From Aquimarina aquimarini (GTDB lineage: Bacteria > Bacteroidota > Bacteroidia > Flavobacteriales > Flavobacteriaceae), in the NCBI RefSeq assembly GCF_900299535.1, contig NZ_OMKE01000033.1, positions 1-64,000 of the forward strand: a stretch of DNA of 64,000 bases, given 5' to 3'. Below, piece after piece: positions 6,954 to 36,971 of this stretch. The first letter of the stretch is position 1; every line of letters begins with the position of its first letter. A program made the translations under genes and the position numbers. The notes below the pieces were generated by a model. The model saw only the letters and a program-made list of their open reading frames with translations. It made no database searches and was not told the DNA's origin.

Positions 6954-7060
6954 TAATTAGCGTTTTGCATAAAGCAGCACTCATTCATAATAAAGTAGAA
7001 CGCTTTTTTTCACCCTAAATAGCACTTTTGTTTTTTAAAAAATCAAAAAAAATAGAATTC

Positions 7061-8782
7061 ATGAAAAAATATTTTACGATCTTATTATTCCTATCTCAAA
7101 TCATACTATCTGGATGCCTAGCTCAAGGCATAGATATCTCAGAAGAAGTTAAGAACAACATCAAATCTCGTATCAAAAATGGTACTAATACAGGGATAGT
7201 TGTAGGAGTTATTACTTCTGATGGAGTAACTTATTATAGTCATGGCGTAAGATCATTAGAAACTAATGTCCCTGTAGATGAAAATTCTATATTTGAGATT
7301 GGCTCTATCTCAAAAACTTTTACAGGAATTTTATTGGCCAATATGGCCGTAAATGGTGAGTTGAATTTAAAAACCCCTCTGCAAAGCCTTCTTCCTGATA
7401 GTATCACAGCTCCCAAAAGAAATGGAGAATCAATCAGATTACACCATCTATCCAATCACACCTCATCATTTCCTAGAATGCCAGATAACTTCACTCCTTC
7501 TAATCCTGCAAATCCTTATGTTGATTATTCAGAAAAACAATTATACTCTTTCTTAAACAGCTATCAACTTACTCGAGATATCGGTTCTAAATATGAATAT
7601 TCTAATTATGCTTCGGGTTTGTTAGGTCATCTATTGGCTAATAAAAATAACATGAGTTATGAAAAGCTAATGATAAAGGTTATTGCCAACCCACTCAAAC
7701 TAGAAAATACTCGTATCACCTTTACTCCTAAAATGAAGAAAAACTTAGCTATAGGACATAGTGCTGGAATAGAAGTAGAAAATTGGGACATTACCACTTT
7801 AGCTGGTGCAGGAGCAATTCGTTCTTCTGCTGTTGATATGATTAAGTATCTAGCAGCTAATATGGGGTTAAAAAAAGGGAATCTATACCCTGCTATGCAG
7901 TTGTCCCATAAAAATTCAAGAAGTGCTGGTAGTAACCCAATGGTAGGGTTAGGATGGCATATTATGCAACGTGATGAATTAGAAATTATTTGGCATAATG
8001 GAGGTACTGGAGGATATCGAGCATTTGTAGGTTTTATTAAAGGTGGTAATAAAGGTGTTGTGGTACTCACAAACTCAAAAGTTGGGGTTGATGATATCGG
8101 AACCCATTTATTAGACTCTACATCAGCATTAGACAAACCAAAAAAACCATCTATTGGTACTTATCTTAAAAATAGTATCGAAAACAAAGGGATTGAAATG
8201 GCTATAAAAACTTATTGGGAATTAAAGAAAAATCAAACCGACACATATGATTTTGGAGAAAATCAATTGAATACTTTGGGGTATTATTATCTTGGAAAAG
8301 GAGATATTGAAAAAGCTATTTCAATATTCAAAATAAATACAATAGCATTTCCTAATTCTTCAAATGTATACAATAGTTATGGTGAAGCATTGGTAAAAAA
8401 CAATGAAAAAACAAAAGCTATTACCAGTTATACAAAATCTATTGAACTCAACCCTGGTAATACTAATAGTATCACAATGCTTAAAAAATTAGGAGTAGAA
8501 ACAAAAGGTCTAATAAAAAAAATAAATATCAAAGATGCAATTCTAGAAAACTATATAGGTAATTATGAGCATGCTGGTTTTGTTATGGCTATTACCAAAG
8601 ATGGTAAACAAATGAAAATTCAAATAACAGGGCAAGAAAAAATTGATATGTATCCTATATCTGAAAATGTTTTTTATTTAAAAGTAGCTTTAGCCAACAT
8701 TACATTTAATAAAAATAAAAAGGGTAAGGTTGAGAGCTTGACTTTATCACAAAACGGAGAAGATATTATTTACAAAAGATAA
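7061..8782 (+). CDS. Serine beta-lactamase-like hydrolase lipoprotein with TPR
   Basis: I take the ATG at 7061 as start because a lipoprotein signal peptide with lipobox LSGC (Cys19) begins there. A TTG at 7028 would add 11 charged residues ahead of it. Of 573 residues, about 25-360 form a class C beta-lactamase/penicillin-binding fold. All three active-site motifs are present: SISK (nucleophile Ser82, Lys85), YSN (Tyr180-Asn182) and HNG near 312. About residues 395-475 hold one or two TPR units. The last 90 residues are a beta-rich domain as found at the C-terminus of many such Bacteroidota hydrolases. Members include esterases and D-amino-acid peptidases, so this should not be read as antibiotic resistance. 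The AraC-type gene upstream may control it. Confidence 0.88.
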   Translation: MKKYFTILLFLSQIILSGCLAQGIDISEEVKNNIKSRIKNGTNTGIVVGVITSDGVTYYSHGVRSLETNVPVDENSIFEIGSISKTFTGILLANMAVNGELNLKTPLQSLLPDSITAPKRNGESIRLHHLSNHTSSFPRMPDNFTPSNPANPYVDYSEKQLYSFLNSYQLTRDIGSKYEYSNYASGLLGHLLANKNNMSYEKLMIKVIANPLKLENTRITFTPKMKKNLAIGHSAGIEVENWDITTLAGAGAIRSSAVDMIKYLAANMGLKKGNLYPAMQLSHKNSRSAGSNPMVGLGWHIMQRDELEIIWHNGGTGGYRAFVGFIKGGNKGVVVLTNSKVGVDDIGTHLLDSTSALDKPKKPSIGTYLKNSIENKGIEMAIKTYWELKKNQTDTYDFGENQLNTLGYYYLGKGDIEKAISIFKINTIAFPNSSNVYNSYGEALVKNNEKTKAITSYTKSIELNPGNTNSITMLKKLGVETKGLIKKINIKDAILENYIGNYEHAGFVMAITKDGKQMKIQITGQEKIDMYPISENVFYLKVALANITFNKNKKGKVESLTLSQNGEDIIYKR

Positions 8783-34758: not shown

Positions 34759-36498
34759 TTACCTAAACAATGAGTTAAATGTAAATAATTGCATTTTATG
34801 GTTATATTTATTGAGTTTGAATAGTTTGACATCTTTTACTTGATTCTCCCTACCCCAATTCCTGTAAACCGTTGCTTTTAAATAAGTAGGCACATTTTTC
34901 TTATTCCCTAAATACTTTATATTTATCAACCACTCCCCTTTATTTAAATTATAAATAAAAAACTCATCAGAAGAATACCCTTTTATCTTCTCATCAAGAA
35001 TACGATCCTTACTTTTTTCTTGAGAATGCTCGTAAACAAAAGAATTTAACTCGGGATCAACAAATTCTAATAAAAACTCTGCCTCAGAGGTATTCCATTC
35101 AAAAACAACACGAATATCACTAGTCAATGTTTCTTCTTCTTCTTTTTTAATTTCAAAAGTTTCTTTAATTTTTGCTACATCTTTTTTATGGGTATACAAA
35201 TACTTCATTTCATTATAAACCATTTGCTCAATACCTTTTTCTTCTAATTTAAACCCTCGTTGTAAATACCTTAAATACATATCCCATGCATTTTGATATT
35301 CTCTGTTTGCAAAATAAGAATTCGCTAAATCTCGAAAAGACTGTGCATAAGAAGGTCTTAAATAAACAATTGTATTATAAACATTCAGAGCTTTTGATTG
35401 CTCTCCTAGCTCCTCATATGTATATGCAAGAGCCTTAAGAGCTTCTGCATTTTCATGAAACTCCTTTTCCATATCTGATAATACTTCTAAAGAAAGTTTT
35501 CTATTGTTTTTTTCTTTTTTGAAATAAGTAGCTATATCTAGATAAAAACTCGGTTGTTTTTTATGCTTATTTAATAAAGCTCTATAAGCTTCATACAATC
35601 CAGTATCGGTAGCGCTTGAATTTACTTTTTTAAAATCATCAATAATTGTAGTTGATACAGCATCTATATAAGGGAAAGCATCATTTTTATATTGATTACC
35701 CCTAGCTTTTTGTTCTGCTTTATGTGTATTAAGAAATATTGAGCTCTTTGTTGTTACAACAATCACTCCTCCTGCTCCTCGCATTCCATAATTTGTTGTC
35801 CCTCCTAAACCTTTAAGAACTACCATATGTTCTATATCATTTATATCAATATGAGGAGGGTAATTATAAACAACTCCATCAATATCCCAAATTGCAAATC
35901 CATTTTTTTCACTCATTACTGGCCGCACTCTAACTCTTTTTCTACCAAGTCCATCATTAGAAATACCATAAGTAGGAATAACTCCTTGTATCGCTTCTAT
36001 CAAATCTACACCCCCTCTATTAAGGTGTTTTCCTTCTACGAGCCAATAAGAAAATGCCGAACTTTTCATATCAATTTCTCCATAAGCAGTATTCAACTTA
36101 TCTAATTCTGTTTTTTTTGCTAAAGAATATTGTTTTTTATCAGCCTCTTTTTTAATCAAAACTTCATCTAGCTTATTAACATCGTTTGTCATCTTGATAT
36201 TGAGAAGTTGAGTAACATCTTCTACAATAATTTCTACTGTTTTTTTCCCTACAAAAGAAAACTGGATAGTTTCTCTTTCTGATGCTTCTATATAATAATA
36301 GCCTTTTTCATCTGTAATTGTTCTCCTATTTTTATTCTTTACAAAAATGTTAACATTTTTTATAGGAATATTATCGGCTGTAACATATCCATAGATTTTA
36401 TGTAAACTTGATTTTGATTGAGCAGAAAGAAAAGAAAAACCTCCTAGTAGAGATAGAGCCAAAATCATCCAAGAAAATAAGTACTTTTTTATAATCAT
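34759..36498 (-). CDS. Plug-TPR protein with DUF2135-like C-terminus, no barrel
   Basis: An exported protein of 579 residues with an unusual domain string. After a signal peptide (1-26) comes a carboxypeptidase-regulatory-like domain at about 34-103 (IPIKNVNIFVKNK). Next is a TonB-receptor plug at about 150-252 (IWDIDGVVYNYPPH; VVLKGLGGTTNYGMRGAGG, shortened). TPR-like helices follow at about 340-440 (EALKALAYTYEELGEQSKALNVY). The end, about 461-575, is a beta domain resembling DUF2135 (RVVFEWNTSEAEFLLEFVDP; GYSSDEFFIYN; VYRNWGRENQ). No beta-barrel follows the plug, so it cannot be a TonB receptor. It is a single gene, convergent with mutB after 15 bases. Function unknown; possibly a cell-envelope assembly or secretion factor. 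Confidence 0.75.
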   Translation of the reverse strand: MIIKKYLFSWMILALSLLGGFSFLSAQSKSSLHKIYGYVTADNIPIKNVNIFVKNKNRRTITDEKGYYYIEASERETIQFSFVGKKTVEIIVEDVTQLLNIKMTNDVNKLDEVLIKKEADKKQYSLAKKTELDKLNTAYGEIDMKSSAFSYWLVEGKHLNRGGVDLIEAIQGVIPTYGISNDGLGRKRVRVRPVMSEKNGFAIWDIDGVVYNYPPHIDINDIEHMVVLKGLGGTTNYGMRGAGGVIVVTTKSSIFLNTHKAEQKARGNQYKNDAFPYIDAVSTTIIDDFKKVNSSATDTGLYEAYRALLNKHKKQPSFYLDIATYFKKEKNNRKLSLEVLSDMEKEFHENAEALKALAYTYEELGEQSKALNVYNTIVYLRPSYAQSFRDLANSYFANREYQNAWDMYLRYLQRGFKLEEKGIEQMVYNEMKYLYTHKKDVAKIKETFEIKKEEEETLTSDIRVVFEWNTSEAEFLLEFVDPELNSFVYEHSQEKSKDRILDEKIKGYSSDEFFIYNLNKGEWLINIKYLGNKKNVPTYLKATVYRNWGRENQVKDVKLFKLNKYNHKMQLFTFNSLFR

Positions 36499-36971
36499 AA
36501 GAATGTAGAGTTAAAAGGTAAAAATTGCATTACAAAAATCAACTATAAACTAAATTTAATTGATTTACTGAACATTACAATAGGCTTTAACGTTCTATTA
36601 TGTATGTCATAACAAGACAAAACGTTACCTAATTAGTAGCATTTCTTTACTAATTTTATAATTCTCATGTATTAGATCACAACTGCATAAAAACCAACAT
36701 TAATTCATCTATTATGACTGAGTAATATATGATAGGTCTATTGTGATTATAAACCAGTACTCTTTATTATTTTTCAGTAAGCAATCTTTTTTTTTACTAG
36801 CTACCTCACTGATAATCAAACACACTAACTAAATGTTGTTTTTTTAAACTTCGTATTACGTAGTGCATTATAATTAATAGTATTTTAGCTAAATAGCTAA
36901 AAGGAGGTGTTAAAAAAACTATGCATGCATAGTTTTTTTAGTACTTTAGCAAAATATCGATACTTATACTT
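36499..36971. other. Divergent intergenic region with long palindrome
   Basis: A gene-free stretch of 473 bases. Its right end holds a 30-bp palindrome (36911-36940) and a promoter-like TACTTTAG (36942-36949) before the SDR start. Before those lie a repeated TAGCTAA (36886-36900 region) and AAGGAGG at 36901-36907, a strong ribosome-binding-like sequence in a genome that otherwise shows few. The rest shows nothing I recognise. Confidence 0.5.
36911..36940. promoter_or_regulatory. 30-bp perfect palindrome, operator or hairpin
   Basis: The sequence is T, seven A, CTATGCATGCATAG, seven T, A: a perfect palindrome with no central gap. It ends two bases before a TACTTTAG promoter-like element, so a protein bound here would block RNA polymerase. 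As RNA, ACTATG-CATG-CATAGT followed by seven U would also look like a short terminator. No plus-strand gene lies upstream for it to terminate. Confidence 0.5.

Follow-up and report, generated by a model that had tools for sequence, protein, structure and literature searches.

What does a transporter plug do in a protein that has no barrel to fill? The question is raised by a gene on the minus strand of the window, the whole 64,000-nucleotide stretch of Aquimarina aquimarini DNA that was analysed. To our knowledge, plugs are known solely as the corks of transporters, and a neisserial plug, going by the title of a study cited in PMC12419801, reportedly retains its structure without its barrel. 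The original prediction, made from the sequence alone, described a protein with a signal peptide, a carboxypeptidase-regulatory-like domain, a plug, TPR-type helices and a DUF2135-like domain, held that the plug had taken the place of a VIT-type domain, and proposed a soluble or envelope-bound factor acting on another complex. The open reading frame starts with ATG, encodes 579 aa and contains no in-frame interruption, and its features are as follows.

34759..36498, minus strand: whole gene of the barrel-less plug/TPR/DUF2135-like protein (579-aa open reading frame and domain searches)
36418..36498, minus strand: signal peptide-like N-terminus, residues 1-27, type I, no lipobox (sequence reading, ...FLSAQ/SKSS)
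36154..36402, minus strand: CarboxypepD_reg-like domain (REG) of the SusC N-terminal extension type, residues 33-115 (PF13715; local profile)
36154..36171, minus strand: TonB-box-like LDEVLI, residues 110-115 (position of the Bt1763 TonB box VDEVVV)
35740..36066, minus strand: SusC-type plug, residues 145-253, without a barrel behind it (SusC/RagA profile, solved SusC chain, local profile)
35746..35838, minus strand: SusC/RagA signature segment, residues 221-251 (TIGR04057, E 1.2e-8)
35146..35640, minus strand: TPR region, residues 287-451 (family profile, NCBIfam TPR model, model helices matching TPR structures)
34774..35127, minus strand: DUF2135-like domain, residues 458-575 (profile comparison; model of the domain alone)
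36499..36971, no strand: intergenic stretch towards the SDR gene (tblastn for a second plug gene)

A SusC-type plug without a barrel

The gene lies tail to tail with a methylmalonyl-CoA mutase-like gene 15 bases away, and an SDR-like gene lies 473 bases upstream, both neighbours being named by reading their translations. A tblastn search of the upstream gap found no remnant of the second tandem plug gene that some Aquimarina relatives carry, and the gap held no match to a Bacteroidota promoter pattern. A promoter scan returned about as many matches as expected by chance, the two terminator-like sites found both lie inside the gene, and a viral-contig scan gave no lead. Elsewhere in the window, the plus-strand frame at 7028-8782 encodes a protein similar to AmpH and class C beta-lactamases, with every listed model scoring below its cut-off.

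The predicted signal peptide agreed with our own reading of residues 1-27, and the carboxypeptidase-regulatory-like domain, placed by the prediction at about 34-103, was recovered by PF13715 (CarbopepD_reg_2) at residues 35-115 with E 4.6e-13. Local profiles gave E 3e-34 for REG and E 4e-40 for the plug, values that are inflated because these profiles were seeded with the query and its relatives, the query being one of seven seeds for REG and one of six for the plug. The TPR-type helices expected at about 340-440 fall within a longer region (287-451) delimited by the family profile; the NCBIfam TPR protein model matched with E 1.9e-8, several Pfam TPR profiles matched below their cut-offs, and Foldseek returned TPR structures.

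The plug, predicted at about 150-252, is of the SusC type. The NCBIfam SusC/RagA profile matched residues 37-252 (E 4.1e-24, under its curated cut-off), the SusC signature TIGR04057 matched residues 221-251 with 34.6 of the 46.2 bits of its curated cut-off, and the best solved SusC chain aligned with residues 21-252 (E 8e-10), whereas Pfam Plug alone gave a weak match at 160-245 (18.3 bits, E 0.0035, cut-off 23.9). All SusC matches on the query end with the plug, the SusC/RagA match covering positions 5-205 of the 981-position profile, and the remainder is TPR and DUF2135-like, as the prediction of a barrel-less protein had held. Since two SusC-type proteins in the same window span positions 3-981 of this model, the missing barrel is a property of the query gene. 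An AlphaFold model, poor overall (mean pLDDT 50.7), likewise contains no barrel, and its TPR part is more confident, with Foldseek matches of the full model mostly to TPR structures. In one VIT form of the family, the REG-plug piece (572-776) matched a solved SusC with E 7.5e-43, and this match too stops where the plug does. The explanation of the gene as a truncated or frame-shifted transporter was rejected, given that the downstream half is the TPR-DUF2135 unit common to 112/112 sampled relatives and that the adjoining gene is a mutase-like reading frame, not a barrel. Judged from these comparisons, the anatomy and homology of the predicted protein are well supported.

The DUF2135-like domain and its family

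PF09906 (DUF2135) gave no Pfam hit on the query up to E 1, and among ten short barrel-less relatives, six matched at 15.8-21.8 bits, below the cut-off of 22, and four gave no match. Three VIT-bearing relatives matched at E 4e-11 to 7e-11 (42-43 bits against the same cut-off), PF09906 reached E <= 0.01 in 18 of 39 aligned C-terminal halves, the query among the 39, and an hhalign comparison of the C-terminal profiles of 13 short forms and eight VIT forms covered 116 columns with a probability of 99.3% (E 3.8e-20). These profile comparisons bear out the predicted DUF2135 identity of residues 461-575 or so as a remote homology to members that exceed the cut-off, which the query itself does not reach.

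An acidic triad, D/N-x-D-x-D, which is our own observation and not a Pfam rule, was present in the DUF2135 domain of 36/36 VIT-bearing members and of 0/76 VIT-less members, the middle Asp being kept in four of the latter; the query has E472, E474 and L476 at these positions. The loss of the triad and the loss of VIT are not an independent correlation, because they trace mostly to one event on one branch. A model of the query's domain alone (pLDDT 65, pTM 0.60) consists mostly of beta strands with one helix. It gave no Foldseek match at E <= 0.001, and the best VIA-align score was Z 6.5 (3u6g, 99 residues, 4.1 A) against the tool's caution level of 8, with further scores of 6.3 for 2lge, a calcium-bound NMR structure, 5.7 for lipoxygenase N-terminal domains and 5.6 for TerD. 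Calcium-binding sandwiches are included among the best matches of the model (Z 5-6.5), a hint too weak for a claim about the fold. A profile search at E up to 1 found no solved relative of DUF2135, and nothing was found under that name in the literature searched, beyond which papers may exist. The query family gives DUF2135 a lineage and candidate partners.

Genome searches scored six to eight candidates per genome, and the prevalence values are therefore lower bounds. In the Flavobacteriaceae, at least 62 of 199 genomes contained a match at E <= 1e-30, and at least 106 of 298 matched the TPR-DUF profile at E <= 1e-25. Within the genus, 25 of 37 genomes matched at E <= 1e-8, two of them (G599 and G603) through weak TPR-type hits alone, so that the family is distributed patchily in both the Flavobacteriaceae and the genus. 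Across the phylum, at least 36 of 395 genomes matched at E <= 1e-50, the other rows being at E 9.5e-12 or weaker and mostly to the TPR part. Twenty phylum hits were fetched, of which 18 were VIT-vWA proteins with TPR-DUF2135 and without a plug; the two with a plug (L129 and L136) come from one family of another order of the class.

Architectures were assigned with the local domain profiles in a census of 112 proteins, after removal of four identical repeats from L149 and L150; since the sampling followed similarity to the query and to its alignment, the counts are not population frequencies. TPR-DUF ends every architecture (112/112). The query type, REG-plug followed by TPR-DUF, accounts for 42 members, and other plug-bearing forms are vWA-REG-plug (14), VIT-vWA-REG-plug (11), REG-vWA-REG-plug (11), REG-REG-plug (6), VIT-vWA-plug (1) and a doubled REG-plug (1). 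The others comprise 20 VIT-vWA proteins without a plug, four VIT-vWA-REG proteins and two without a recognised plug or VIT. The vWA motif DxSxS was found in 59 of the 61 vWA-bearing members. No description of proteins combining a barrel-less plug with TPR and DUF2135 was found in the literature searched, and papers beyond it may exist; this is apparently a large, undescribed family of barrel-less plug proteins. Two irregular copies were also seen. In L044:4978-8445, a 521-aa family copy stands beside pieces of 285 and 160 aa resembling a broken second copy, and L154:5302-8253 is a REG-plug frame of the family, 983 aa long, that lacks the DUF2135 end and has a TAA inside the match, which could be a natural truncation or a sequencing error. 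A protein of about 385 aa with a REG at each end lies close to plug genes at L055:13339-14496 and in L046, L049, L056, L059 and L075.

Order of domain changes and selection on the plug

The idea that a plug replaced the VIT-type domain did not survive the census, in which 12/112 members carry VIT and plug in one protein, where the plug follows vWA and precedes TPR. The TPR-DUF tree was rooted with 18 VIT rows that lack a plug and come mostly from other families, an outgroup that is not quite one side of a branch, with two rows misplaced. A single branch (SH-aLRT 100), nested among the VIT-bearing rows, gathers 75 of the 76 VIT-less rows, and the query falls, with support of 97, into a branch of 12 rows from its own genus; L067_5201, the one VIT-less row outside, groups with a VIT form from its own locus. 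The tree needs two changes in the presence of VIT, four for vWA and seven for the plug, and a single clade of all VIT-less rows, a group named after the tree had been seen, was rejected with p-AU 0.009. VIT appears from this tree to have been lost at least twice in the Flavobacteriaceae forms, as an event separate from the arrival of the plug, and replacement of one by the other was rejected. What stands of the overall prediction is the combination of a plug lacking a barrel with TPR and a DUF2135-like domain, found in a lineage to which VIT proteins also belong.

It is reasonably supported by these comparisons that an ancestral VIT-vWA-TPR-DUF2135 protein took up a SusC REG and plug between vWA and TPR, and that VIT and vWA were lost later. 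The order from vWA-bearing to short form is suggested by branches with support of 88 and 94, not 95. In the tree of the REG-plug part, the plugs of VIT forms fall among the 14 SusC plugs of the window's genome; 73 plugs from VIT-less proteins cluster (92) with a single SusC row on a long branch, and L067_5201 is placed elsewhere. This suggests more than one plug uptake within the DUF2135 family, as judged from a tree whose well supported branches do not force more than one.

The genomic sites of the family were also compared. Both menE and the carboxyltransferase gene accD are present in 17 of the 59 loci of at least 11 kb, and these 17 loci hold 22 short, five vWA and three VIT forms. At this site the query's own genome has a YfbK-type protein and no family member, its family gene lying between the mutase and SDR genes as in seven other Aquimarina loci, four of which (L038, L039, L151 and L152) have two family genes and three of which (L155, L158 and L159) have one. 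In this assembly, 95.6% complete, the query was the only family member found and no vWA paralogue of the family was detected. Among loci with short forms, 9 of 35 also hold a vWA- or VIT-bearing member.

In 11 hand-chosen pairs, dN/dS was below 1 for every domain in 11/11, with values for the plug of 0.02-0.42, and under such purifying selection the plug is no relic. The highest plug value, 0.42, is that of the query against Aquimarina macrocephali, a comparison with 16 indel columns. The plug segments DVDG and YG..GGVIV.TK are conserved in 41 short members, and the loops between them are variable. The plug is the least similar domain in 6/8 comparisons of the query with its genus, but plug dN is below TPR dN in 6/11 pairs, which weakens the notion of a hypervariable plug. 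In the tandem of four genes in L055, copies 2 and 4 have about 99% DNA identity over TPR-DUF and about 60% over REG-plug, and copy 4 is sister to copy 1 in the REG-plug tree (99) and to copy 2 in the TPR-DUF tree (99). Because the two halves differ both in identity and in sister pairs, recombination or gene conversion between the copies is indicated, which points to L055:7872-9614 and L055:11445-13334 as a putative gene-conversion mosaic in which the base was homogenised and the plugs differ. A similar dip in identity over the plug was seen in L168. From these sequences, the head seems to change in jumps and not by steady hypervariability.

Possible roles and known counterparts

A signal peptide-like start was found by a crude test in 108 of the 112 members, and the lipobox pattern in 0/112. 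From the signal peptide-like start and the missing lipobox, we infer that the query protein is soluble and periplasmic. Our preferred reading, to which we give a probability of about one half, is that of a soluble periplasmic adaptor in which the TPR-DUF2135 part is the base and the plug unit an exchangeable recognition head. The protein would be exported by Sec; its TPR-DUF2135 half would bind a partner common to the family, one candidate being the vWA-bearing paralogue that some genomes encode next to short forms, and its REG-plug half would be a folded head docking onto a different protein of the envelope. Counting against this reading are the lack of a vWA paralogue of the family among the hits in the query's genome, the small share (9/35) of short-form loci that also hold a vWA- or VIT-bearing member, the patchy distribution of the family, and a plug that is not always the fastest-changing part. 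The TonB-box-like strand of the head may be presented to TonB, and the protein would then be a TonB client or competitor outside any barrel. The predicted gating of, or docking on, another complex is possible, as is coupling of the query to TonB.

The TonB-box-like strand is central to a rival proposal, in which TonB grips LDEVLI of the soluble REG-plug and pulls on, unfolds or releases whatever TPR-DUF2135 has bound, which would direct the proton-motive force at a periplasmic complex in place of a channel. The query's strand occupies the position of the Bt1763 TonB box VDEVVV, which lies directly after the PF13715 domain and which, when mutated, leads to poor growth on levan (PMC7782687). The LDEVLI-type pattern is kept by 78 of 85 plug-bearing members, and among the 11 VIT forms with REG-plug, seven retain at the end of the box the GYG that is also seen in SusC. 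In 4/59 loci a YfbK-type vWA protein, in some cases with an evident REG-plug, is encoded near the family, and vWA proteins, likened to YfbK, have been proposed elsewhere as motor-coupled force transducers in an account (PMC12204202) whose available part makes no mention of plug fusions. However, of ten REG proteins without a plug that the family's loci encode, eight also carry the pattern (six of the eight belonging, by eye, to one family), so the box is no proof of TonB contact; this control did not separate the two groups and weakens the box as a sign of contact. Moreover, 7/85 plug-bearing members lack it, the query's own box lacks GYG, and neither TonB nor ExbBD was found among the 13 neighbour proteins scanned. 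We consider TonB-driven action of this kind unlikely.

A similar balance applies to a plug acting in trans, in which the soluble plug would enter or regulate the barrel of another protein, either a TonB-dependent transporter or BamA, so as to block it or assist its assembly. The SusC-like core residues are conserved, and BamP, described in PMC12611786 as a periplasmic protein with a loop entering the BamA barrel, is the next-best NCBIfam model after SusC. However, the likeness to BamP is confined to residues 11-156 and scores 53.2 bits against the NCBIfam equivalog cut-off of 230, at which membership was rejected; the genome has at least 56 other plug hits, all in frames of at least 648 aa; and the 13 neighbour proteins scanned include no transporter save one ABC protein. 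This explanation, too, is improbable. Exposure at the surface or secretion, with plug loops binding glycans or peptides outside the cell, would agree with the signal peptide and the variable loops, but the pattern for a lipobox is absent from all 112 members and no type IX sorting domain is among the Pfam and NCBIfam matches of the query, and we regard it as quite unlikely. Decay is the least credible of the explanations and close to refuted: the short forms seem to derive from longer proteins, the top dN/dS among the plugs compared is the query's, with the indel columns noted above, and pieces of a broken copy exist in one genome (L044), but a non-functional remnant of a larger VIT-vWA-plug protein is contradicted by dN/dS below 1 for every domain in all 11 pairs, by frames of 560-640 aa in 27 other genomes of the 199-genome Flavobacteriaceae search, and by tandem arrays of up to four short copies (L055).

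A large barrel-less plug family under selection would show a second use of the plug fold, and would offer a soluble system in which plug-TonB or plug-ligand contacts are measurable without a membrane. A bolder generalisation, which we consider a long shot, is that the SusC plug has turned into a mobile recognition head of the periplasm that needs no barrel. On this view, envelope proteins of the vWA type would have acquired it more than once (VIT-vWA-TPR-DUF2135 proteins in one case, YfbK-type proteins in another), recombination among tandem copies would swap it on an unchanging TPR-DUF2135 base, and TonB would use it to apply force to periplasmic complexes and not to open a channel.

The query's own genome also encodes a YfbK-type vWA protein of 689 aa (L202:4889-6958, contig C37) with its own barrel-less SusC-type REG-plug; Pfam matches are CarbopepD_reg_2 at 24-105, Plug at 141-206 (28.7 bits, cut-off 23.9), vWF_A, VWA and YfbK_C. 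The plug search of the whole genome had passed over this protein. Pfam Plug scored 43.3 bits on the YfbK-type relative in L067 and 20.8 bits on that in L062, while the relatives in L047 and L050 had no Pfam Plug match and were matched by the local plug profile.

Four known systems can be set beside the query. SusC/RagA TonB-dependent transporters (PF13715 with the plug PF07715) have in common with it the N-terminal extension, the plug core and the position of the TonB box; they differ in having an outer-membrane barrel, where the query, probably soluble, continues from the plug into TPR and a DUF2135-like domain. The VIT-vWA-TPR-DUF2135 proteins of Bacteroidota have a TPR-DUF2135 half homologous to that of the query, which has neither VIT nor vWA, has a REG-plug, and carries Glu, Glu and Leu in place of the acidic triad. 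BamP of the Flavobacterium BAM complex is periplasmic and has a PF13715-like N-terminal region as in the query, whose match to it is limited to that end and far below the family cut-off. YfbK-type vWA proteins carry a barrel-less SusC-type REG-plug like that of the query, as a second vWA family with this module, but they end in YfbK_C and lack the TPR and DUF2135 domains that the query has.
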